Shown in pieces: positions 25,441 to 36,744 of a DNA stretch of 64,000 nucleotides (positions are counted from its first letter, which is position 1; every line of letters begins with the position of its first letter). The stretch is taken from positions 62,001 through 126,000 of the forward strand of contig JAHHHH010000004.1 in NCBI GenBank assembly GCA_019359415.1. Direction: 5' to 3'. The notes beneath the pieces were generated by a model. It had not been told where the DNA came from and did not search any database. It worked only from the letters and a program-made list of their open reading frames with translations. The translations under genes and the position numbers were made by a program. This DNA comes from Iphinoe sp. HA4291-MV1 (GTDB lineage Bacteria; Cyanobacteriota; Cyanobacteriia; Cyanobacteriales; Nostocaceae).

Positions 25441-26793
25441 ATGTCTGAAGAACTGAACTTTCAAAGTCATGGTATGGATCGCCTCCCTCCTCAAAACATT
25501 GAGGCGGAAGAAGCAATATTGGGAGGGATTTTGCTAGATCCAGAAGCGATAAGCAGAGTGGGCGATCGCTTGATTCCAGACGCTTTTTATGTTAGTGCTC
25601 ATAAAGACATCTATCAAGTCACTGTGAGGTTGCATAACCAAGGTAAGCCTACAGACTTGCTTGCGGTGATAAATTGGCTAACCGACCACGACATGCTAAC
25701 CCGTGTTGGCGGTAGAAATAAATTAGCAACGCTAGTAAACCGCACAGTGTCAGCCGTCAACATCGACGCTTTAGCAGATTTAGTCATGGAAAAATATTTA
25801 CGGCGTCAGTTAATCAAAGCTGGTCATGAAATTGTGCATCTGGGTTACCAAACAGAGATCGAGTTACCAAAGGTTTTAGACCAAGCAGAACAAAAAGTAT
25901 TCAGCATCACTCAAGAACGTCCTCAAGTTGGTCTGGTTCACATTTCCGACACCCTAATTAATACTTTCCAAGATATTGAAACTCTCAATCAAGGTGTCGC
26001 TCTACCAGGAATTCCCTGCGGTTTTTATGATTTAGATGCAATAACCAGCGGTTTTCAGCGTTCTGATTTGATTGTTGTTGCTGGTCGTCCATCAATGGGG
26101 AAAACGGCCTTTTGCTTGAATCTCGCTCATAACATTGCAGCTTCATATAAATTCCCAGTTGCTATTTTCAGCTTAGAAATGTCAAAACAACAACTGGTAC
26201 AGCGATTATTAGCAAGTGAGGCGGGAATAGAAACGACTTATTTGCGGAGTGGACGCATTAGTCAAACTCAATGGGAACCTTTAAGCCGTGCTATTGGTAT
26301 GCTCTCTGATATGCCAATTTATATTGATGATACGCCAAATATTACTGTCACAGAAATGCGTAGTCAGGCGCGGCGTTTGCAAGCAGAAATAGGGACAGAA
26401 TTAGGACTAATTGTTATAGATTACTTGCAATTAATGGAAGGAGCGGGCGATAATCGCGTGCAGGAAATATCAAAAATTACCAGAAATCTTAAAGGTTTAG
26501 CTCGTGAATTATGTGTTCCAGTGATTGCTCTATCTCAGTTGAGTCGGGGAGTCGAATCACGAACTAACAAGCGTCCCATGTTATCTGATTTGAGAGAAAG
26601 TGGAAGTATCGAGCAGGATGCAGATTTAGTCATCATGTTGTACAGAGATGACTATTATAACATCGACAGCCCTGATAGAGGAGTTACCGAGGTCATCATA
26701 GCTAAACACCGCAACGGTCCAACAGGTACTGTTAAACTTTTATTCGACCCACAATTTACCAAGTTTAAAAATTTCGCCAGACCGAATTATTGA
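25441..26793 (+). CDS. dnaB: Replicative DNA helicase DnaB
   Basis: A 450-residue hexameric helicase that unwinds DNA at the replication fork and loads primase. The N-terminal domain (RLPPQNIEAEEAILGGILLD) is followed by the RecA-like domain with Walker A VVAGRPSMGKTAFCLNLAHN, Walker B LGLIVIDYLQLM, the DnaB motif ALSQLSRGVESRTNKRPMLSDLRESGSIEQDAD and the C-terminal RNGPTG arginine-finger region. Many cyanobacterial dnaB genes contain an intein; this one is uninterrupted across the Walker A and H4 positions. It is monocistronic by spacing. Its position next to the repeat-rich region is not functionally informative. Confidence 0.97.
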   Translation: MSEELNFQSHGMDRLPPQNIEAEEAILGGILLDPEAISRVGDRLIPDAFYVSAHKDIYQVTVRLHNQGKPTDLLAVINWLTDHDMLTRVGGRNKLATLVNRTVSAVNIDALADLVMEKYLRRQLIKAGHEIVHLGYQTEIELPKVLDQAEQKVFSITQERPQVGLVHISDTLINTFQDIETLNQGVALPGIPCGFYDLDAITSGFQRSDLIVVAGRPSMGKTAFCLNLAHNIAASYKFPVAIFSLEMSKQQLVQRLLASEAGIETTYLRSGRISQTQWEPLSRAIGMLSDMPIYIDDTPNITVTEMRSQARRLQAEIGTELGLIVIDYLQLMEGAGDNRVQEISKITRNLKGLARELCVPVIALSQLSRGVESRTNKRPMLSDLRESGSIEQDADLVIMLYRDDYYNIDSPDRGVTEVIIAKHRNGPTGTVKLLFDPQFTKFKNFARPNY

Positions 26794-26819
26794 AATAGTC
26801 TCACCAAACAAGGCAAAAG

Positions 26820-26847
26820 TTAACCCTTCGGCTCCGCTCAGGGTTAA
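26820..26847 (+). terminator. Hairpin downstream of dnaB
   Basis: An 8-bp stem TTAACCCT / AGGGTTAA, 27 bases after the dnaB stop, with a GC-rich loop. No T-run follows. It may stabilise or end the transcript, or be a dispersed repeat. Confidence 0.4.
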
Positions 26848-27569
26848 AAGTTAAAAGGCAAAAGAAAGAAAGAAAAATAAATCGGTTGTGAGCCGCCTGA
26901 ATTTATTCATGGAAAAGAAGATGAAGATTTGTTTCCTTGACACGTAGTGCGTTCGCCCTTGGCGTCTCCCTTAGGAGACGCCAAGGGCGATGGCGGTTTC
27001 CGTCACGTAGACAAGGGAGCGGTGAGACAGCGCGAATGATGGCTTTCCCGACAGAGGCGACGGGCGTTCCCGTAAGCGCAAAGCGCAGGCTCCGCCAACG
27101 CTCCGCGTCTCGCTTAGGAGAAGGGCTTTCCCGACAGAGTAGGGGGACTGGCAACTGAAGCAGCCTCTGTTGAAGGAGACACAAGGGACGGAGCGTCGGG
27201 AGCATCCCAAATGTTCGCTCTTTATGTCAAATGCAGTGCGAGCATCTTGCTCGCATACCATGACAAGCGAGCAAGATGCTCGCACTACTTTCACAAAATT
27301 GGGATGCTCCCCGGAGCGTCCGCTTTAAATCCCCTCATTTTACAGCGCTTTTCAAGTAAATAAACCAGGCTGTAGGGGCAAAGGCTACCCGTGCCCCTAC
27401 GAAAATCTGTGGTTCAATTAACTGAAAATAGCTGTAATTATAGGGATTCTCTTTTTACTTTTTACTTTCACGAATAATGTAGAGACGTAGCATGCTACGT
27501 CTCTACAGCTACGTCTCTACAGCTGTGTATTGCACGCAACACCAGAAGCGCTATATTTTGTACCCATCC
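26848..27569. other. Repeat-dense intergenic region
   Basis: No supported gene. It includes a perfect 17-bp-stem hairpin with a 4-base loop (26953-26969 with 26974-26990, GGCGTCTCC-type REP), two direct copies of GGCTTTCCCGACAGAG (27041-27056 and 27124-27139), the complete short mobile element at 27198-27311, and a repeated GTAGAGACGTAGC stretch near 27478-27520. Short open frames across it are products of these repeats. Confidence 0.75.
27198..27311. mobile_element. Non-autonomous element, GGGAGCATCCC family, copy 2
   Basis: 114 bases with perfect 13-bp terminal inverted repeats (GGGAGCATCCCAA and TTGGGATGCTCCC) and a perfect 9-bp direct repeat CGGAGCGTC on both flanks (27189-27197 and 27312-27320). 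Inside is a second perfect 19-bp inverted repeat (27236-27254 with 27267-27285). There is no transposase, so it must be mobilised in trans. It is related by its ends and by duplication length to 23861-23986. Confidence 0.9.
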
Positions 27570-28100
27570 TTACTGAATTTTCAGCAACTCCACATCAAAA
27601 ACCAGAGTAGCGTTAGGTGGAATAACACCACCAGCACCACGAGCGCCATAACCTAACTCTGGAGGTATGATTAATTGACGACGCCCGCCTACTTTCATTG
27701 TGCTAAGTCCTTCGTCCCAACCTTTGATGACTTGTCCGACACCGAGTTTGAAACTGAAGGGACTGTTGCGATCGCGTGAACTATCGAACTTAGTACCATC
27801 TTCTAAGGTGCCAATGTAGTGAACAACAACCGTTTGTCCAGTTTTGGGAGTCGCCCCAGTCCCTTCTTTTAAATCAGTATACTTGAGTCCAGAGGACGTA
27901 GTGACAACATTAGCGTCAGACATAGTTTTGCTTGCAATTAGGGTATTGTTTTCTTGTACCTGGATGAGTGCTGGAGTTGTTTCGGTCAACTGGACAGCAA
28001 CGGCGCTATCCTGTTTGCTAGCACCAATTTGCGCCAACACTAAAACCACAACACAAACCAGCATGAAACCCACGCTGAGTAAAATCGCTTTCAAAATCAA
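27570..28100 (-). CDS. FKBP-type peptidyl-prolyl cis-trans isomerase, membrane-anchored or exported
   Basis: A 176-residue protein. Residues ~1-24 are a signal anchor ([20 protein letters not shown]), followed by a linker, and residues ~70-176 are a complete FKBP domain ([69 protein letters not shown]). It catalyses proline isomerisation during folding, here outside the cytoplasm, perhaps in the thylakoid lumen or periplasm. It is the downstream gene after 28175-28498 on the same strand. Confidence 0.94.
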
Positions 28101-28174
28101 TCCTCCCTACTTAGTATTCGAGGAATTTAAGATAACCAGTAGGACAAAACTTAGTTTAAATCAGAAAGCGACCC

Positions 28175-28498
28175 CTAACGCCAAAGCTTATTTTCTAAAT
28201 CGCGCACTTGACGCTCTAAACGGTCAATTCTACCCCGCAGTTCATCCATTTCCGACTGACGAGCTACCCCCAAATCCTGTAACATATTTCGCAGTTGTCG
28301 TTGCATACTTGATTCCCAACTTCCCTGCTCCGACTTCAACTGCTGTACCATATCATCCATAACCGCCTTAGCTTGGTCAGGATCAAGCTTACCATCCTTA
28401 ACAAGTTGGTCGCTCACTTCCCGCAGTTTGTCTGCTACTAAGGACGTTGTCCCAATACCTAACATGACTAACTGCTTCATCCAGTTGTTGTTATCCAT
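28175..28498 (-). CDS. Phasin/UbiK-like small helical protein
   Basis: A 107-residue all-helical protein. The N-terminal segment (WMKQLVMLGIGTTSLVADKLREVSDQLVKDGKLD) and the C-terminal coiled coil (LRGRIDRLERQVRDLENKLWR) resemble the PhaF/phasin-like or UbiK-like accessory families found widely in cyanobacteria. The exact role is not known; these proteins oligomerise through the coiled coil. It is upstream of the FKBP gene by about 75 bases on the same strand, so cotranscription is possible. Confidence 0.7.
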   Translation of the reverse strand: MDNNNWMKQLVMLGIGTTSLVADKLREVSDQLVKDGKLDPDQAKAVMDDMVQQLKSEQGSWESSMQRQLRNMLQDLGVARQSEMDELRGRIDRLERQVRDLENKLWR

Positions 28499-28581
28499 AA
28501 TGTCTTTCTATCACTTTTTTCAAATCAAATGCCCTTTTTCATAAATCTATCTTATAGACCTATGGTAGAAGGATAATTAAT

Positions 28582-28614
28582 ATGGGCAATGGGCAATGGG
28601 CAATGGGCAATGGG
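28582..28614 (+). repeat. ATGGGCA heptanucleotide tandem repeat
   Basis: Four full and one partial copies of ATGGGCA. This is a short tandemly repeated repetitive sequence of the type described in heterocystous cyanobacteria. The same unit occurs near 16863 and 56704. Confidence 0.9.
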
Positions 28615-28676
28615 AAACTGGATTCTTAATGCCGTACCTTATGAATGAGCGAATTTTGAATTGTCTTGTCCCCTTG

Positions 28677-28709
28677 TCCATTCCTTTACCAACAGGTTTT
28701 GACCACACC
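28677..28709 (+). repeat. 33-base dispersed repeat, copy 2
   Basis: Identical over 33 bases to 16888-16920. It lies 62 bases after an ATGGGCA heptamer array, the same association as in copy 1. Confidence 0.8.
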
Positions 28710-28764
28710 CAATTAATATAGACTACAGTTCTATTCTGACAGACACACACAAGGGATAAAAAGT

Positions 28765-29073
28765 GTGATAATCGAACTGCTTAAGGTGAAAGTTCCGCCC
28801 GAACAAAGAGAAAAATATATCCAAAAAGATGCGGAGATTTGGACAAAGGCGCTGGCTAAATATCCAGGATTTCTTGGTAAAGAGGTTTGGATTAATCCCA
28901 ATGATGCCACAGAAGTGGTTCTGGTCATTCACTGGGCGACAAAGGAAGATTGGAAAGCTATACCCCAAGCAGAACTGGACGCTATTGAGTACAAGTTCAC
29001 CCAAGCAATGGAAAAACATTATCCAATTGTGGAGTCAGGCGAGTATCAAGTGCGGAAATTTCCGCAGAAATAA
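28765..29073 (+). CDS. TIGR03792-family cyanobacterial protein (ABM-like fold)
   Basis: A 102-residue protein starting at GTG (read as Met), IIELLKVKVPPEQREKYIQKDAEIWTKAL, with FLGKEVWINPNDATEVVLVIHWATKEDWKAI. This matches the small cyanobacterial TIGR03792 family of dimeric alpha/beta-barrel fold. The function is unknown, and no catalytic residues are recognisable. An AAGGGATAAAAA stretch lies upstream of the start. It is a single gene between repeat-bearing gaps. Confidence 0.82.
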   Translation: MIIELLKVKVPPEQREKYIQKDAEIWTKALAKYPGFLGKEVWINPNDATEVVLVIHWATKEDWKAIPQAELDAIEYKFTQAMEKHYPIVESGEYQVRKFPQK

Positions 29074-29126
29074 GCAGCTAAAATTTTAATAACTATAGCG
29101 GTTCTCATTTGAATCACAAACACCTT

Positions 29127-29229
29127 CAGGACTTACGCAAAGAAACCCGGTTTCTACCAAAAATCGTCTGTTTTGCAACGAAAAACGAACAAAGAAACCG
29201 GGTTTCTGACAGATTCTGCGTAAGTCCTA
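29127..29229. mobile_element. Non-autonomous element, AGGACTTACGCA family, copy 1
   Basis: 103 bases with AGGACTTACGCA near the left end (29128-29139) and TGCGTAAGTCCT near the right end (29217-29228). ACCTT flanks it on both sides (29122-29126 and 29230-29234), one base outside each repeat, consistent with a 5-bp target duplication. Each arm carries one AGAAACC[C/G]GGTTTCT quasi-palindrome (29141-29155 and 29193-29207). There is no coding sequence. A second copy with the same ends and its own 5-bp duplication is at 39175-39336. Confidence 0.85.
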
Positions 29230-29241
29230 ACCTTAACAAAA

Positions 29242-29269
29242 AGAACTCAGAACTCAGAACTCAGAATTC
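29242..29269 (+). repeat. AGAACTC heptanucleotide tandem repeat
   Basis: Four consecutive heptamers of the form AGAACTC, the last one slightly changed. A cyanobacterial short tandem repeat, non-coding. Confidence 0.85.
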
Positions 29270-29440
29270 ACCAATTGAATTCTGTGCGACGCAAGGGATG
29301 AGTAAAGGGGTTTAAATCCCCACCGTCTACGGGGGTGTCTACAATTGGTTGGGATCAGCAATCTTGAGTCCAATTGATTCTGACTCGCACAATTGCTGAC
29401 GAATGATTCTTCTTCAATAAGTTTTAGGGGAAAACCAGTC

Positions 29441-30127
29441 ATGTTAGAGTTTAACCTGCCAAGGTACTTGCCTTCTGCCGAAGAATTACCCGACTCTGAC
29501 GATACCCCTGTGGATAATGAATTGCAAGAATTGATACCAGGCTTACTCAAAGCGATACTGCTGATACTATGGGCAGAACGCATGAACTGGTTTTTTGGAA
29601 TAGACATGGGTATCTATTATCACCCCGATAAACCGCCTATTGTGCCAGATGGGTTTCTGAGCTTAGGGGTAGAGCGAGTTTATGATGAGGAATTACGACC
29701 AAGTTATGTATTATGGGACGAAAACGTTGTCCCTACTTTGGTGCTAGAAGTTGTTTCTCAAAATTATCGCAAAGAATATAGCACTAAAAAAGAAGAATAT
29801 GCAGCGCTGGGTGTTTTGTATTATGTTATTTACTCTTCCCGGCGTCGCCGTAAACCACGTTTGGAAGTGCATCGGTTGGTTGATGACAAGTATGAATTGC
29901 AAGAGGGAAATCCTGTTTGGCTACCGAAAGTTGGTTTGGGAATTGGTTGCGATAGCCCTTTGGGCGGCTCCCTGCTGGAGCATCGCGGAACTTATGGAGG
30001 CGTAACGCGAGAGTGGCTTTATTGGTACGATGAGCAAGCCAAACGTTATCCTACGCCAGAAGAACGTATTAAAAGATTAGCAGACAAATTGCGTGAGTTA
30101 GGGATAGATCCGGAGAGTATTGGGTGA
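29441..30127 (+). CDS. Uma2-family (DUF820) putative endonuclease
   Basis: A 228-residue protein with the PD-(D/E)xK-like fold of Uma2 proteins: the block PPIVPDGFLSLGVERVYDEEL carries the conserved Asp, and VPTLVLEVVSQNYRKEYSTKKEEYAALGVLYYVIYSS carries the E-V-x-S ... K motif. The C-terminal third ends in a helix (TPEERIKRLADKLRELGIDPE). These proteins are greatly amplified in cyanobacteria and their biological role is unsettled. I used the ATG at 29441; the frame opens 48 bases earlier with TTG. It lies at the left border of the defence-like region. Confidence 0.88.
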   Translation: MLEFNLPRYLPSAEELPDSDDTPVDNELQELIPGLLKAILLILWAERMNWFFGIDMGIYYHPDKPPIVPDGFLSLGVERVYDEELRPSYVLWDENVVPTLVLEVVSQNYRKEYSTKKEEYAALGVLYYVIYSSRRRRKPRLEVHRLVDDKYELQEGNPVWLPKVGLGIGCDSPLGGSLLEHRGTYGGVTREWLYWYDEQAKRYPTPEERIKRLADKLRELGIDPESIG

Positions 30128-30289: not shown

Positions 30290-33200
30290 ATGGTGGAATG
30301 GTTCATTAGCGCTTTAGCAACAAATGCTGTCGGACTTCTTGTCAAGACTATTCTCAACGAAGAATTTGCTAAGGATTTAGCCAAGGACTACGCCAAAGAC
30401 TTCTTCAAAGACCGCTTCAACAACGTTACCACAGCGCTCTTTCAAAAAGAACCGCTTCAGAAAGCTATTGCTAAAGCGCTGAAAGAATTTTTGCAATTGG
30501 TGGAAGATGAGTTAAGGTTTCGCAGGCTTTGTGATGAGGAAATTAAGAAGTTTGCGAAATCTCTCAAGACTTTTATCTATGACAAGTCTGTTAAGGAAGT
30601 TCTGGGTAAAGCTTTTGATGCTGATTGTGATTCTCTAGATTATCAAACTCTACAAAAGACTTGGCAAAGTCTTAGGCTACCGCCTTTACCAGCTAAGTTT
30701 AACTGGCAATTAGTGTCGGATAATTATCTCAGGAAAGCTCAACAAATTCTCTTTGAGTCAGACGAGTTACGAAATATCTTGATTCTTCAGAAACTTGATG
30801 CGATCGAGAAAAGTGATCAAGAAAGGAGTGATATCCAACCCGATTTTAATTTACTTAAATATCAAGAGGTGATTCGCGAGCGCTACGCCAATCTCAAATT
30901 AGATAGTTTAGAAACCAGCGGTTACGCCTATAACGAATTGCGGTTATGGCGAATGTTTATCCCGCAAAAGGTGCGGAAGGTTCACCAAGTCCTACCACAA
31001 GTTCATGAACTTCCTAAAGAACATCTGAGACGATTGCGAGAAAGGAACGAACTGGAAGCAGAAGAAATTTTGCAGGAAGAGTTGGAACGTCAGAAGCGAG
31101 ATTATTTTGAACAGACTGTGCGTTCGGTGAAAGAGGTTGTCGAAGATAAGCAAAAGTATAAATATGTAGTTATTTTGGGTGATCCAGGTTCAGGTAAGTC
31201 TACATTATTGCAATACCTGGCGTTAGATTGGGTAGAACAAACTCTTGATAAGCTTGATAAGACAAAAAATTATCTGCCGATTCCCTTGCTGATTGAGTTA
31301 CGCGCTTATATGCGGCGACGGGAAGATAAAGAATGCAGTAATTTTCTGGAGTTTTTCCATAAATGTAGTGGCGCGATCGCTCATCTCAATCAACATAAGT
31401 TGCAGGAAGAACTAAGAGCCGGGAACGCCTTGGTGATGTTTGATGGTTTGGATGAAGTTTTTGACTCTGGAAAACGAGAAGATGTGATTACAGATATTCA
31501 CCGCTTCACGAATGAGTATCCTGATGTGCAGGTGATTGTGACTTCTCGTGTTATTGGTTACAAACCGCAACGGTTGCGAGATGCTGGGTTTAAACATTTC
31601 ATGTTGCAAGATTTGGAAGCAGAGCAAATTCAGGATTTCGTCAACTGTTGGCATTCTGAAACTTTTGTTGATAAGGTTGATGGAGAGAGGAAAAGAAAGC
31701 GACTGCAAAAAGCTATTGACACATCAAATTCGATTGCCGAACTTGCTGGCAATCCTTTATTGTTGACGATGATGGCAATTCTAAATCGTAACCAAGAGTT
31801 GCCAAGAGATAGAGCCGAACTTTACAACCAAGCATCGCGGGTGCTGTTGCATCAATGGGATGTGGAACGTGCTTTGGTGGAAGATAAGAGGTTAGACTCG
31901 AAAACAATAGATTATAAAGATAAGCAAGCAATGTTGCGTCAAGTTGCTTACCATATGCAAACCAGTGAAAAAGGTTTGGCGGGCAATTTGATATGTGCTA
32001 ATGATTTAGAAAGGATTTTGACTGGGTATTTAAAAACCATAGAAGTTGACAAAGCAAGAGTTGCTGCGAGGGTGATGATAAATCAACTGCGGACTCGCAA
32101 CTTTATGTTATGTTTCTTGGGTGCTGATTATTATGCTTTTGTTCATCGGACGTTTTTGGAATATTTTTGCGCTTGGGAGTTTGTCTGGCAGTTTAAAGAG
32201 ACGCAAACGCTGGAAATTGAAGAACTCAAAACGGAAGTTTTTGGAAAACACTGGTGGGATGAAACTTGGCACGAAGTCTTGCGGTTGATTGCAGGAATGA
32301 TTGAGCCGAAGTTTGTTGGCGAAATTCTGGAATACTTAATGGCGCAGAATGGGGAGGAAGAGAAATTTAGCAACTTGTTTTTGGCGGCTAAGTGTTTTTC
32401 TGAGGTGAGAAATAGGACGGTAATTGCAAAAACCGCTCAGGAATTGCTGAACAATATTAAAGACTTAACCAAATATGATTTAAATTACTATTACGATCCA
32501 AATCAAAATGAAGAAGAGATAAAACTCGTTCAAGAAATTCGCACCCAAGCAGTTGCAGCAATTGCAACAACTTGGGAAGATGACGCTGAAACTTTAGCCT
32601 TCCTCAAAACTCGCGCTACTGCTGATGATAATTCGTCTGTGCGAGGTGCAGCACTCCAAGCATTAGCCAGCAACTACAAAGATGACGCTGATACTTTAGC
32701 CATCCTCAAAACTCGCGCTACTGCTGATGATAATTCGTCTGTGCGAGGTGCAGCACTCCAAGCATTAGCCAGCAACTACAAAGATGACGCTGATACTTTA
32801 GCCATCCTCAAAACCCGCGCTATTGATGATAATTATTGGGATGTGCGATATGCAGCAGTCCAAGCAATAGCCAGCAACTACAAAGATGACGCTGATACTT
32901 TAGCCATCCTCAAAACTCGCGCTACTGCTGATGATCATTCGTCTGTGCGATATGCAGCAGTCCAAGCATTAGCCAGCAACTACAAAGATGACGCTGATAC
33001 AAAAGCCTTCCTCAAAACTCGCGCTACTGCTGATGATCATTGGGATGTGCGACGTGCAGCAGTCCAAGCATTAGCCAGCAACTACAAAGATGACGCTGAT
33101 ACAAAAGCCTTCCTCAAAACTCGCGCTACTGCTGATGATAATGAGTATGTGCGACGTGCAGCAGTCGAAGCATTAGCCAGCAACTACAAAGATGACGCTG

Positions 33201-34129
33201 ATACAAAAGCTTTCCTCAAAACTCGCGCTACTGCTGATGATCATTGGGATGTGCGAGGTGCAGCAGTCGAAGCATTAGCCAGCAACTACAAAGATGACGC
33301 TGATACAAAAGCCTTCCTCAAAACCCGCGCTACTGCTGATGATTCGTATGTGCGAAGTGCAGCAGTCGAAGCATTAGCCAGCAACTACAAAGATGACGCT
33401 GATACAAAAGCCTTCCTCAAAACTCGCGCTACTGATGATGATAATGAGTATGTGCAATATACAGCAGTCGAAGCATTAGCCAGCAACTACAAAGATGACG
33501 CTGATACAAAAGCCATCCTCAAAACTCGCGCTACTGCTGATGATGATTCGGATGTGCGAGGTGCAGCACTCCAAGCATTAGCCAGCAACTACAAAGATGA
33601 CGCTGATACTTTAGCCTTCCTCAAAACTCGCGCTACTGCTGATGATAATTCGTCTGTGCGACGTGCAGCAGTCCAAGCATTAGCCAGCAACTACAAAGAT
33701 GACGCTGATACTTTAGCCTTCCTCAAAACTCGCGCTACTGCTGATGATACTTGGGATGTGCGATATGCAGCAGTCCAAGCATTAGCCAGCAACTACAAAG
33801 ATGACGCTGATACTTTAGCCTTCCTCAAAACTCGCGCTACTGCTGATGATAATTCGGATGTGCGAGGTGCAGCAGTCCAAGCTTTAGGTAAAAATTTCCC
33901 CTATCAGCCTGAGTTGTTTGATATCTACTACAATTGCGCTGTCAATGATCCCTTTGAGCGCAAGGAAAGCTATGAAACCAATCCTCGGCAAGTTGCACTT
34001 GAGATCATTATCAAACAACATCCTCACCATCCCCAAACTTTACCACTGTTGCACGACAGAGCGGAGAATGATCCCGATGAGCAAGTGCGGGAATTTGCTC
34101 AGAAGAAGTTGGCAGAATTAGAGAAGTAG
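30290..34129 (+). CDS. NACHT NTPase with C-terminal HEAT-like repeat array (NLR-like)
   Basis: A 1279-residue STAND protein. Residues ~1-280 form a helical N-terminal region (LLVKTILNEEFAKDLAKDY) of the kind seen before NACHT domains in cyanobacteria. The NACHT ATPase spans ~290-600: Walker A GDPGSGKST (297-305), Walker B FDGLDE (384-389), sensor TSRVIGY, then the winged-helix part and FVHRTFLEYFCAWEF. Residues 764-1204 are 13 nearly identical 34-residue HEAT-like repeats, and two diverged repeats close the protein. Bacterial NACHT proteins of this plan act in anti-phage defence: repeats sense, ATPase oligomerises, N-terminus executes. The effector activity here is not recognisable. It sits between Uma2 and toxin-antitoxin genes. 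Confidence 0.9.
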   Translation: MVEWFISALATNAVGLLVKTILNEEFAKDLAKDYAKDFFKDRFNNVTTALFQKEPLQKAIAKALKEFLQLVEDELRFRRLCDEEIKKFAKSLKTFIYDKSVKEVLGKAFDADCDSLDYQTLQKTWQSLRLPPLPAKFNWQLVSDNYLRKAQQILFESDELRNILILQKLDAIEKSDQERSDIQPDFNLLKYQEVIRERYANLKLDSLETSGYAYNELRLWRMFIPQKVRKVHQVLPQVHELPKEHLRRLRERNELEAEEILQEELERQKRDYFEQTVRSVKEVVEDKQKYKYVVILGDPGSGKSTLLQYLALDWVEQTLDKLDKTKNYLPIPLLIELRAYMRRREDKECSNFLEFFHKCSGAIAHLNQHKLQEELRAGNALVMFDGLDEVFDSGKREDVITDIHRFTNEYPDVQVIVTSRVIGYKPQRLRDAGFKHFMLQDLEAEQIQDFVNCWHSETFVDKVDGERKRKRLQKAIDTSNSIAELAGNPLLLTMMAILNRNQELPRDRAELYNQASRVLLHQWDVERALVEDKRLDSKTIDYKDKQAMLRQVAYHMQTSEKGLAGNLICANDLERILTGYLKTIEVDKARVAARVMINQLRTRNFMLCFLGADYYAFVHRTFLEYFCAWEFVWQFKETQTLEIEELKTEVFGKHWWDETWHEVLRLIAGMIEPKFVGEILEYLMAQNGEEEKFSNLFLAAKCFSEVRNRTVIAKTAQELLNNIKDLTKYDLNYYYDPNQNEEEIKLVQEIRTQAVAAIATTWEDDAETLAFLKTRATADDNSSVRGAALQALASNYKDDADTLAILKTRATADDNSSVRGAALQALASNYKDDADTLAILKTRAIDDNYWDVRYAAVQAIASNYKDDADTLAILKTRATADDHSSVRYAAVQALASNYKDDADTKAFLKTRATADDHWDVRRAAVQALASNYKDDADTKAFLKTRATADDNEYVRRAAVEALASNYKDDADTKAFLKTRATADDHWDVRGAAVEALASNYKDDADTKAFLKTRATADDSYVRSAAVEALASNYKDDADTKAFLKTRATDDDNEYVQYTAVEALASNYKDDADTKAILKTRATADDDSDVRGAALQALASNYKDDADTLAFLKTRATADDNSSVRRAAVQALASNYKDDADTLAFLKTRATADDTWDVRYAAVQALASNYKDDADTLAFLKTRATADDNSDVRGAAVQALGKNFPYQPELFDIYYNCAVNDPFERKESYETNPRQVALEIIIKQHPHHPQTLPLLHDRAENDPDEQVREFAQKKLAELEK
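32579..33901 (+). repeat. 13 tandem 102-base coding repeats in the NACHT gene
   Basis: Each unit encodes 34 residues of the form DDADTLAFLKTRATADD-xxx-VR-x-AAVQALASNYK (unit 8 is one codon shorter). Most of the unit is unchanged even at the DNA level, whereas residues 18-20 (NSS, YWD, HSS, HWD, NEY, DSD, TWD, NSD and others) and residue 23 (G, Y, R, S) vary from unit to unit; positions 6 (L/K), 8 (I/F), 26 (L/V) and 27 (Q/E) alternate. DNA-level identity implies recent duplication or gene conversion. Confidence 0.93.
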
Positions 34130-34144: not shown

Positions 34145-34375
34145 ATGAACAACATTACAATTCGTCAGCAAATCAACCAATATCTCGATGGATTATCTTC
34201 AGAACGCCTAGAACTGGTTGCTGATTTTCTCGCTTATCTAGCAGAGAAAGAAAGTGAAGAAGCTGCCCAAGAATTACTCGATATTCCAGGTTTTATAGAA
34301 TCTTTTGAGAGGGGTAAAAAAGATGTTGCTGAAAGTCGTGTGAAAAATTGGAGAACAATTCGCTCAGATGTATAG
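34145..34375 (+). CDS. Antitoxin-like protein paired with RelE-type toxin
   Basis: A 76-residue protein, helical at the N-terminus (TIRQQINQYLDGLSSERLELVADFLAYLAEKE), matching the small cyanobacterial proteins placed before RelE/ParE toxins. The C-terminal part (FIESFERGKKDVAESRVKNWRTIRSDV) is the likely toxin-binding tail. It begins 15 bases after the NACHT gene and overlaps the toxin gene by 8 bases, so the three may be transcribed together. The family is assigned largely by context. Confidence 0.75.
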   Translation: MNNITIRQQINQYLDGLSSERLELVADFLAYLAEKESEEAAQELLDIPGFIESFERGKKDVAESRVKNWRTIRSDV

Positions 34376-34628
34376 CGTTATTTTATCTGCTGAAGCAGAG
34401 GATATTTATGCTTCAGCAGACCAAGCCTTAGCAAAAAAGATTGCCAGATGCTTTGAACAACTAGAACAAAATCCTCGGTTTCACCCTAATATTAAACCCC
34501 TCAAAGGAGACTTGGCAGGCTATTACCGCTATCGCATCGGTGACTATCGAGTGATTTACCAGATTGATGATGACACAGATCAAGTTATTGTCAATACTAT
34601 TGCTCATCGACGAGAGGCGTATGAATAA
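34368..34628 (+). CDS. RelE/ParE-family toxin
   Basis: An 86-residue protein with the RelE fold sequence pattern: ALAKKIARCFEQLEQNPRFHPNIKPLKGDLAGYYRYRIGDYRVIYQIDDD and a final NTIAHRREAYE. The LKG-x5-YRxRxGDYRxxY block and the terminal His-Arg-Arg are typical of translation-dependent mRNA interferases. Starting ATG overlaps the antitoxin reading frame. Probably active, since key basic and tyrosine residues are kept. Confidence 0.9.
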   Translation: MYSVILSAEAEDIYASADQALAKKIARCFEQLEQNPRFHPNIKPLKGDLAGYYRYRIGDYRVIYQIDDDTDQVIVNTIAHRREAYE

Positions 34629-34660: not shown

Positions 34661-34846
34661 ATGCCCAAGAAAATTAGAGAACTCAAAAACTTATTGCTGC
34701 AAGCAGGGTTTACTTACAAATCTGCCAAAGGTAGTCATAGTAAATGGATACATCCGAAATTATCTAAAGCTATTATCATTGCTGGTAAAGATGGTAGTGA
34801 TGCCAAACTGTATTTAGAAAAGCAAGTTAATGAAGCACTTGCATAA
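34661..34846 (+). CDS. hicA: HicA toxin
   Basis: A 61-residue protein, MPKKIRELKNLLLQAGF ... SAKGSHSKWIHPKLSKAIIIAGKDGSDAKLYLEKQVNEAL. The GSHxxW/H motif with the catalytic histidine, in a double-stranded-RNA-binding-like fold, defines HicA mRNA interferases. It is 32 bases after the RelE-type toxin and 41 bases before hicB, all in the same direction. Confidence 0.9.
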   Translation: MPKKIRELKNLLLQAGFTYKSAKGSHSKWIHPKLSKAIIIAGKDGSDAKLYLEKQVNEALA

Positions 34847-34887: not shown

Positions 34888-35112
34888 ATGAAATATACAA
34901 TCATTATTCAATGGTCAGAAGAAGACCAATGTTATGTGGTTTTCTTACCTGAGTTTACTGATGTCATGCAGCCTTGCACTCACGGAGAGACTTACGAAGA
35001 AGCTCTCGAAAACGCTCAAGAAGTCATAGAAATGTTAATTGAAACATCTTTAGAAATCGGTGAACCTCTCCCAAAACCTCAAACGCTAGCAAAATCCTGG
35101 AAAGTCGCATAG
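34888..35112 (+). CDS. hicB: HicB antitoxin
   Basis: A 74-residue partner of HicA: MKYTIIIQWSEEDQCYVVFLPEFTD then THGETYEEALENAQEVIEMLIE, the partial RNase-H-like fold of HicB. The C-terminus is short (GEPLPKPQTLAKSW) with no DNA-binding domain, so autoregulation must act another way or not at all. A GGAGATAGAAGA ribosome binding site precedes the ATG. Confidence 0.9.
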   Translation: MKYTIIIQWSEEDQCYVVFLPEFTDVMQPCTHGETYEEALENAQEVIEMLIETSLEIGEPLPKPQTLAKSWKVA

Positions 35113-35862: not shown

Positions 35863-36023
35863 AACAAGTCGGATGCAAACCGCCAGTATAAAAAGCGAAT
35901 ATTTTTATCTCTGCCTACAAGCAAGGAAGGGTAAGGGGTGAGGTTCTACATTTCACCCTACGGGAATCATATATTTAGCAAATATTGCTACTTCTTTACT
36001 AGTATTTACACGGTAATTTGACA

Positions 36024-36500
36024 ATGGTTTCTCAAAATATCAACGCTACCCTTTCGCCAGAAGATATTCAACAAATCAAAGCAGCAATACAAACAATTCA
36101 ACAAAAGCTGCCTTTTCTTATTAACCTAAGTACGGAAGAACGGCGCAAGTTATTTAAAATGGGCGATAAAAGCCTAGCTTTTGTTAACAATAGTCTCACC
36201 GCTGCTCAGTCAAACCCCGACATTTTACCAGCAACTTTTGACCTTCAGGAATTTGTCCGAGATTATCAATTAGCCGCTACACTCACGGAACTTTTAATTG
36301 CACTGCGGCAACTCAATGAACAGGTAGATGATACTCTACTAGCAGTGGGTAGTGAAGCTATGAGCAGCAGTTTGACGGTTTATGAGTATGTGAAAACTGC
36401 TGCTAAAAAGACTCCTGGTTTAAAAAGCCTTGCTGAACAACTAGGCGAACGCTTTAAAGCAATTAGAAACAAACCTGTGGAACCTGGTTCTGGTTCTTAA
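36024..36500 (+). CDS. Conserved-looking cyanobacterial hypothetical protein
   Basis: A 158-residue soluble helical protein (SPEDIQQIKAAIQTIQQKLPFLINLSTEERRKLFKMGDKS, LRQLNEQVDDTLLAVGSEAMSSSL). The pattern ISLTxEERRxLxKxGDKS is common to small cyanobacterial proteins of unknown function. No membrane segment or catalytic motif is seen. The ATG at 36024 is six bases inside a TTG-started frame. It is followed by an array of 21-base repeats. Confidence 0.7.
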   Translation: MVSQNINATLSPEDIQQIKAAIQTIQQKLPFLINLSTEERRKLFKMGDKSLAFVNNSLTAAQSNPDILPATFDLQEFVRDYQLAATLTELLIALRQLNEQVDDTLLAVGSEAMSSSLTVYEYVKTAAKKTPGLKSLAEQLGERFKAIRNKPVEPGSGS

Positions 36501-36534
36501 AATTAGCACGCACGAGGTGTCTCCTTTCGTCCAT

Positions 36535-36744
36535 GAGTGTTTGGAACTCACGCACGAGTATTTGCAACTCATCGATAAGTGTTTGGAACTCACGCACGAG
36601 TATTTGTAACTCATCAATGAGTGTTTGGAATTCACGTACGAGTATTTGCAATTCATCAATGAGTGTTTAGAATTCACGTACGAGTATTTACAACTCATCA
36701 ATGAGTATTTAGAATTCACGCACGAGTATTTGCAACTCATGGAC
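36535..36744. repeat. Ten 21-base tandem repeats (heptad-coding phase)
   Basis: Units of 21 bases begin at 36535 and every 21 bases to 36724; odd and even units alternate (GAGTGTTTGGAACTCACGCAC type and GAGTATTTGCAACTCATCAAT type), so the true period is 42. On the minus strand the frame reads LVREFQTLIDELQI, a coiled-coil heptad pattern, but several left-out units carry TAA at the CAA position, so only a short frame is open. It could be a decaying coiled-coil gene or non-coding repeat. Confidence 0.85.

Follow-up and report, generated by a model that had tools for sequence, protein, structure and literature searches.

The NNH2-NACHT-HEAT gene and its domains

The window analysed here, a 64,000-nucleotide stretch of the filamentous cyanobacterium Iphinoe sp. 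HA4291-MV1 (assembly GCA_019359415.1, contig JAHHHH010000004.1, positions 62,001 to 126,000), carries on its forward strand an NNH2-NACHT-HEAT gene (30290..34129), an open reading frame (ORF) of 1279 aa with Pfam matches to NNH2, NACHT and HEAT_2, which encodes a STAND (signal transduction ATPase with numerous domains) protein of the NLR (NOD-like receptor) type. The original prediction, made from the letters of the window, had called it an NLR-like NACHT protein, and this architecture is shown by the tripartite layout in Pfam (NNH2 N-terminal, NACHT central, HEAT repeats C-terminal), by invariant Walker A and B motifs and by Foldseek matches to NLR proteins.

All domains are given on the forward strand. 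The protein begins with a hydrophobic stretch at residues 2-21 (30293..30352; mean Kyte-Doolittle 1.34), which averages 1.05 over the 76 proteins that align from residue 1, the window protein included, and the N-terminal part outside this stretch averages -0.44. It is a guess that these first ~20 residues form a membrane-active helix and that the protein acts at the membrane. The NNH2 helical domain (residues 26-209, 30365..30916; PF22734, E 2.2e-58) is presumed to be an effector or adaptor; a PDB sequence search gave no convincing relative of it (best E 0.092), and no separate search with its fold was made. The NACHT NTPase domain (residues 292-457, 31163..31660; PF05729, E 9.8e-13) contains, according to the alignment, a Walker A motif or P-loop, GDPGSGKS (residues 297-304, 31178..31201), in which G297, P299, G300, G302, K303 and S304 are unchanged in 35/35 aligned rows, and a Walker B motif, VMFDGLDE (residues 382-389, 31433..31456), likewise invariant in 35/35. 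The model of the N-terminal part (mean predicted local distance difference test score, pLDDT, 69.8) matches NLRC4, NLRP3, NOD2 and NAIP5 in Foldseek at E 1e-9 to 1e-5 with template modelling (TM) scores to the model of 0.27-0.38, the top matches NLRC4 and NLRP3 reaching E ~1e-9 but TM of only ~0.3.

The HEAT array (32579..33901; HEAT_2, E 3.8e-61), delimited by Tandem Repeats Finder (TRF), sequence, family comparison and AlphaFold2, comprises 13 repeats with variable positions 18-20 and 23, and is followed by a C-terminal cap (33902..34126) with a last HEAT-like unit (PQTLPLLHDRAENDPDEQVREFA...) at its end; many homologues close with a last unit resembling this cap. The sole NCBIfam match of the protein, CpcF, scored 27.5 bits against a cut-off of 220 and was taken as general HEAT similarity, and a phycobilin-lyase function was rejected. 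The genome of the window encodes one strong NNH2 protein and two weak matches under the cut-off.

The repeat array of the window

As had been predicted, the repeats are nearly identical at the DNA level: TRF describes 102 bp x 12.9 copies with 92% matches (score 2062), and mean pairwise identity is 91% for DNA and 82% for amino acids, repeats 1 and 2 differing at 2/34 residues. The predicted number of 13 repeats was found, twelve of them with the predicted 34 residues and the eighth with 33, lacking position 18. Positions 18, 19, 20 and 23 (hereafter the four positions), which had been proposed to differ between copies, do so, with a mean pairwise amino-acid difference of 0.70 vs 0.12 at the other 30, and the 13 repeats hold 12 distinct four-residue codes when the gap at position 18 is counted as a letter. 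The repeats also vary at positions 6 (L/K), 8 (F/I), 26 and 27, absent from the earlier list. At least 13 nonsynonymous and 0 synonymous changes are required at the four variable codons, where 3 synonymous changes would be expected under neutrality, and at least 16 nonsynonymous and 6 synonymous changes (6 expected) at the other positions; taken alone, these counts are only suggestive of a nonsynonymous excess.

AlphaFold2 modelled the C-terminal 573 aa with a mean pLDDT of 91.4. Most repeats have helix A at positions ~3-15 and helix B at ~19-32, so that the four positions fall in the intra-repeat turn and the opening turns of helix B. The helix boundaries and the residue composition suggest that the variable residues are solvent-exposed. 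Foldseek matches the array to HEAT solenoids, among them karyopherins and the PP2A A subunit (6iur_B, TM 0.52), and small t antigen and B56 are described in passages of PMC1945078 as bound via the ridge of intra-repeat loops of the PP2A A subunit. By analogy, the variable ridge of the window array may be that same ridge.

Homologues and variability across the family

A match at E <= 0.001 was present in 52/60 genomes searched (the window's own included), many of them to the NACHT part only. One scan of a genome collection of 84,980 species returned 499 related stretches, of which the best 80 were kept (L066-L145); by title these best 80 of 499 loci are all cyanobacterial, with many filamentous genera, a sample biased by the cyanobacterial query. 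Together with the window they give 81 proteins, 62 with arrays of at least four usable repeats and 19 without. Ten repeat rows with insertions, from nine loci, were dropped from the counts, and C-terminal caps had initially been counted as repeats in 5/14 arrays of clade D and in some others; the main counts, repeated without the caps, gave the same result. Clades D and F are branches of a tree of the 81 N-terminal parts, picked after viewing tree and repeats: clade F takes in 14/15 rows of its branch (L106 lacks a usable array) and clade D 14/19 (L094, L100, L111, L130 and L132 left out). The clade D result is unchanged with all 17 usable rows of its branch, and also without its member L085, which has runs of N and one in-frame stop. 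Runs of N or contig ends within the gene, in or near the array, were seen in L066, L085, L106 and L130 and in open-ended loci such as L070 and L097; the NNH2-NACHT-HEAT gene is often broken in public assemblies.

The variable positions had been set by the original prediction on the window and were hence not picked from the family data. Averaged over the 62 arrays, positions 18, 19, 20 and 23 rank 1st-4th of 34 in variability (0.67, 0.74, 0.75, 0.67), followed by positions 8 (0.61), 7 (0.56) and 17 (0.53), and their mean exceeds that of the other positions in 62/62 arrays, so that the proposed focus of variability extends to the family. Within single arrays all four make up the top four in 2, three of them belong to it in 23, two in 19, one in 12 and none in 6. 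Among 446 repeats, 275 distinct four-residue codes were counted. Outside clade F (48 arrays), 80% of the residues at the four positions are W, Y, S, D, N, G, R, H or T and 7% are I, L, V, M or A, and aliphatic residues make up 79% at the core positions of helix B. Position 7, which was not put forward as a contact, is likewise polar (71%), so residue composition alone does not show binding.

Arrays rewritten in clade D

Clade D consists of 14 loci with N-terminal parts ~93% identical and 7-14 usable repeats (one L090 repeat with an insertion was dropped), and its arrays differ between genomes. With caps left out, identity at the four positions in the 78 pairs at N-part identity of at least 0.90 is 24% both in the best order and after shuffling, and it is 73% at the remaining positions. 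For counts of sharing, the repeat code was defined as the exact five residues at positions 17-20 and 23, in order; 32 pairs with N-part proportion of synonymous differences (pS) <0.15 share a mean of 0.02 of this code. At least 1 kb of flank is shared upstream in 70/91 pairs, downstream in 36, on both sides in 30 and on either side in 76, some flanks in clades D and F being too short to reach 1 kb, and clade D is therefore largely one locus. The arrays of clade D have thus been rewritten between genomes. Among the arrays of the family, segmental duplications of three repeats were found in L076 and L095, and of four in L110. L076 and L095, from different genera, have nearly the same 14-repeat array, and other pairs of the clade share little; either recent transfer or retention may account for this likeness.

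Arrays kept in clade F

Clade F has 12 repeats in 14/14 loci. In its 15 pairs at N-part identity of at least 0.90, the four positions are 98% identical in order and 53% after shuffling of the order, and the other positions are 91% identical. Code sharing is 0.75-1.00 in 6 pairs at pS 0.15-0.40, with a mean of 0.37 at pS 0.4-0.6 (56 pairs) and 0.11 above (29 pairs). Between orthologous repeats of the clade F core (8 loci), omega (dN/dS) is 0.022 (0.006-0.034) at the four positions vs 0.090 (0.076-0.107) at the rest, with proportions of nonsynonymous differences (pN) of 0.008, 0.027, 0.012 and 0.000 at positions 18, 19, 20 and 23; position 7, which varies within arrays, changes freely between orthologues (pN 0.311). 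Over all 14 loci omega is 0.112 (0.058-0.181) at the four positions and 0.119 (0.106-0.134) at the rest. Purifying selection acts on the four positions in the whole of clade F, but it exceeds that on the rest only in the core. The original prediction had named a kept repeat order and number, with no excess of change at the four positions, as evidence against itself: order and number are not kept in clade D and among the window's kin, whereas clade F is constant in number, with order and residues conserved among close members.

Both kinds of array occur in single genomes. Within-array DNA identity was compared in five genomes, and in all five it is 0.61-0.67 for the clade F copy and 0.79-0.88 for the second copy; since the second copy is always the more homogenised, a genome-wide difference in mutation or repair is disfavoured as an explanation of the two regimes. 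Nostoc FACHB-110 and FACHB-280 have 7/12 codes in common in their clade F copies at pS 0.52, and 0/11 in their other copies at pS 0.22. Judged by title, a clade F copy together with another copy is also present in Atlanticothrix CENA357, Nostoc TH1S01 and Trichormus M33_DOE_039, a usable array being missing in one or both.

Selection within arrays

Homogenised arrays were defined as those with a mean DNA difference <0.20 (n=29), a limit chosen by us, and dN/dS was obtained by pairwise counting rather than from a site model. In these 29 arrays dN/dS is 2.55 (confidence interval 1.93-3.65) at the four positions vs 0.64 (0.55-0.77) elsewhere; the per-position comparison that the original prediction had called for thus shows a nonsynonymous excess at the named positions taken together. 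The corresponding values are 1.62 (1.14-2.34) and 0.50 (0.42-0.62) for the arrays of clade D, and 0.52 and 0.17 for those of clade F, which are older. Position by position in the homogenised arrays, dN over the dS of the whole repeat is 1.92 at 18, 4.35 at 19, 3.36 at 20 and 3.84 at 23, with 3.57 at 8, 1.49 at 27, 1.09 at 24 and 0.74 at 17, and omega with local dS is 8.8 at 20, 20.9 at 23 and 2.5 at 8.

Synonymous differences are unevenly spread along the repeat, with very few at positions 17, 20, 23 and 24 and many at 2, 19 and 31-33. At codons 17, 20, 23 and 24, bases 1 and 2 vary and the third base hardly does, in homogenised arrays as in those outside clade F. Of the arrays in which bases 1 and 2 occur in three or more combinations, 24/43 have a constant third base at position 20 and 26/44 at position 23. 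Two-fold codons of the N-terminal part end in T at a frequency of 0.71-0.84.

Genomic neighbourhood and the lineage of the window

The upstream flank common to the window's relatives (25441..30127, from gene calls, Pfam and locus comparison) contains dnaB helicase (25441-26793, forward strand, named from sequence), an FKBP gene (27570-28100, reverse), a phasin-like gene (28175-28498, reverse) and Uma2 (29393-30127, forward). These genes, not each of them everywhere, also adjoin the homologue in L041-L044, L066, L067, L069, L070, L073 and L074 (L041, L043 and L044 being the same places as L070, L073 and L074), as well as in the clade F loci L103, L109, L123, L125 and L126, which shows that the chromosomal position of the gene is conserved. 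Usable repeats at this position number 13 in the window, 13 in L042, 9 in L069, 4 in L067, 4 in L073 and at least 5 in L070, which ends with its contig; this range of 4-13 among kin with the same upstream flank, together with the segmental duplications in some arrays, agrees with the predicted gain and loss of repeats. Compared with six relatives at N-part pS 0.41-0.61, the window has none or one of its codes in common in order. These relatives are distant, and clade F also loses codes at such pS, so that turnover is best shown by clade D and not by the window. Closer pairs of the window's branch share 0/5 codes at pS 0.33 (L069-L070) and 0/4 at pS 0.12 (L068-L071).

Same-genus copies of the gene are decayed or interrupted by an in-frame stop in three genomes (L038 in G006, L039 in G004 and L042, with one stop, in G002), with the upstream flank conserved, as would be expected for a dispensable accessory gene.

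Directly downstream on the forward strand follow a 76-aa ORF with no Pfam match (34145-34372) and a ParE-type toxin gene (34368-34625), and then a HicA toxin gene (34661-34846) and a HicB-like antitoxin gene (34888-35109). A 42-bp tandem array of 5 copies (91%) lies at 36533-36740, just past an ORF at 36018-36500. One scan of viral contigs found no phage-borne relatives among 33 pattern matches.

Proposed function and alternative explanations

The reading that we favour, and hold somewhat probable, is that the protein is an NLR-type receptor with a HEAT solenoid as sensor, whose residues at positions 18-20 and 23 read a ligand and are rewritten in clade D and kept in clade F. Here surface exposure, the nature of the ligand, the ATP switch, the mode of the effector and the role in anti-phage defence are what we infer. 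Residues 18-20 and 23, with 8 and weakly 27, would line the solenoid at the intra-repeat turns and contact a protein ligand. Once bound, the ligand would release the NACHT module, allowing it to take up ATP and form oligomers; the oligomer would bring the NNH2 helical domains together, and the assembled domains would arrest or kill infected cells, possibly by acting at the membrane. Recombination between repeats (gain, loss and homogenisation) may act, in clade D and probably also in the lineage of the window, together with selection for amino-acid change at the contact positions. Number changes, homogenisation and segmental repeats point to unequal exchange between repeats, and a search of the window's own genome found no donor copy of the array elsewhere. 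Such rewriting would be expected if the ligand keeps changing, as proteins of phages or other parasites do, and the surface of clade F may be kept as if the receptor watched a conserved molecule. The recognition surface of the original prediction is thus favoured by the homogenised array, the repeat turnover and the pooled nonsynonymous excess, and residues that are quickly rewritten in one clade and conserved in another are what such a surface would lead one to expect; the prediction as a whole is supported in part.

Several observations weigh against this reading. The clade D pair L076-L095 shares 0.86 of its code, and in small intermediate clades L075-L079 keep 6/14 codes and L077-L078 8/13. 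The contrast between copies is weak in genome G032 (mean DNA difference 0.30 in L048 vs 0.36 in the clade-F-like L033). Flanks of at least 1 kb are shared by few clade F pairs (upstream 13/91, downstream 3, both 1, either 15), and it is from the tree and the shared upstream genes that clade F appears to be one locus. With regard to selection, dN relative to whole-repeat dS reaches 1.45 (1.03-1.96) at the control position 7 of homogenised arrays, and omega with local dS also exceeds 1 at positions 11 (2.9) and 27 (2.9) and at 17 and 24, the latter two with hardly any synonymous difference behind it; the signal is hence not confined to the four positions. The scarcity of synonymous differences at 20 and 23 inflates local omega there, and codon bias accounts for only part of their uneven spread. 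The bootstraps resample arrays (repeats for clade F) and so treat related arrays as independent. PADLOC gave only weak generic ATPase matches, PtuA and mad8.

A neutral account, which we regard as unlikely, makes the array a structural spacer whose repeats gene conversion keeps similar, with variation at positions 18-20 and 23 due only to the loose constraint on loop residues. These positions do sit where helix A turns into helix B, in homogenised arrays omega with local dS is ~1 at 18 (1.09) and 19 (0.88), and the six non-core loci of clade F conserve them no better than the rest (omega 0.158 vs 0.122). However, the purifying selection on these positions in clade F, over all 14 loci and most of all in the core, despite differences from repeat to repeat, is not what loose constraint would leave, as the free position 7 illustrates by changing readily in the same core, and the pooled dN/dS of the homogenised arrays also speaks against neutrality. 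The receptor might instead serve self/non-self or developmental recognition, that is, filament-level kin recognition or programmed cell death rather than anti-phage defence, as with fungal HNWD proteins, an idea that we find doubtful. The loci come from cyanobacteria with many filamentous genera, subject to the query bias stated above, NNH2 exceeds the cut-off in 28/292 genomes drawn from the phylum Cyanobacteriota vs 0/14 control genomes, and the nearest published regimen is fungal allorecognition; a clade conserved across genera would nevertheless fit poorly, as allorecognition should need polymorphism.

Short-read assemblers can collapse or scramble near-identical repeats, in which case number and order would mean little. 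That 7/80 loci run off a contig end, 4 have runs of N in the gene and the window genome lies in 140 contigs is in keeping with such an artefact, which is nonetheless very improbable: contigs of 6.28-8.48 Mb carry homogenised arrays (L032 with 16 repeats, L034 with 12 and L056 with 9) and also the clade F code (L033), and collapse cannot easily yield the 275 codes or the constant 12 repeats in all 14 clade F assemblies. We give still less credence, indeed hardly any, to the array being the target of a diversity-generating retroelement (DGR), by which the variable codons would be mutated from a template repeat. The variable codons of the window differ in bases 1 and 2 only, the share at base 3 being 0, as such a target might, but base 3 makes up 21% of the differences in arrays outside clade F, many adenines are constant in the repeat, and the window's own genome (95% complete, 140 contigs) has no second copy of the array, the next match being 23 bases long, a reverse transcriptase not having been searched for.

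A more specific proposal, which we consider distinctly unlikely, is a modular reading head. Each HEAT repeat would contact one unit of an extended ligand via positions 18-20 and 23, and repeat order would spell specificity, as it does in TALE and PUF repeats. Recombination would then write new words in the diversifying lineages, and clade F would retain a single word of 12 repeats that matches a conserved target, which may be a host protein under guard. If true, the family would be a naturally edited, decodable bacterial receptor.

Comparison with known systems

The receptor reading places a bacterial family under a regimen known from fungal and plant immune receptors. It comes with a built-in comparison, the same residues being rewritten in one clade and conserved in another with both kinds of copy in single genomes, so that direct versus guard-type recognition can be put to the test in bacteria, and a search for a ligand could start from the one conserved 12-repeat surface of clade F. 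The literature searched, which leaves out most subscription journals, yielded no account of such a regimen in a bacterial NACHT-HEAT family.

Several bacterial proteins share single traits with the family. Like the anti-phage bNACHT proteins, it has a central NACHT module in a tripartite STAND protein; bNACHT25 (PMC12169576) differs by its nuclease effector and NCH1 domain. Highly repetitive prokaryotic WD40 proteins, enriched in Cyanobacteria, similarly have high internal repeat identity and diverse predicted interaction hotspots (PMC5587647), but on WD40 instead of HEAT repeats, and the passages concerned make no comparison of repeat turnover between orthologues. In multicellular bacteria, a putative sensor on a NACHT/STAND protein is diversified by a DGR (PMC10907252), which acts on a lectin domain, whereas the present family would rely on repeat recombination, no template having been found in the window genome. 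A screen for TALE-like repeats retrieved tandem repeats of 30-43 aa that are alike except at few positions, as here, with HEAT among the hits; known repeat types, HEAT included, were left out of its further analysis, and no NACHT protein is named in the passages concerned (PMC5472282). HEAT repeats are also mentioned in other bacterial conflict proteins (PMC7159879, PMC8195603).

In plants, diversifying NLRs stand beside conserved relatives in one receptor family, which has been read as direct vs indirect recognition (PMC8226289). Variable and conserved relatives within one family are likewise seen here, though the plant proteins have leucine-rich instead of HEAT repeats and NB-ARC instead of NACHT, and their diversity was measured within species and ours between species.

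The closest likeness is to fungal NLRs, the HNWD/NWD proteins (het-d, het-e and het-r of Podospora) and those with ankyrin, tetratricopeptide (TPR) or HEAT repeats, which combine a nucleotide-binding oligomerization domain (NOD) with internally conserved tandem repeats that show number polymorphism, concerted evolution and positive selection at few binding-face positions (PMC4986451; PMC12222747); one of them, Pa_6_7270, is sesB-like/NACHT/TPR(HEAT) with 3-12 repeats (PMC4986451). The premise of the original prediction, that fungal NLRs join conserved repeats with a few hypervariable positions, is borne out by passages of PMC4986451. Set against the marks of HNWD-type proteins, repeat identity >85% over at least 100 aa compares with the window's mean of 82% at the amino-acid level, some pairs being higher; turnover of repeat number and order between close relatives is found in clade D but not in clade F; and positive selection at few positions has its counterpart in the pooled dN/dS from pairwise counting. 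Both groups thus join a NOD to homogenised repeats with number turnover and selection at few positions, whereas the cyanobacterial family is bacterial, has an NNH2 N-terminus and includes, in addition, a clade with 12 fixed repeats and conserved codes.

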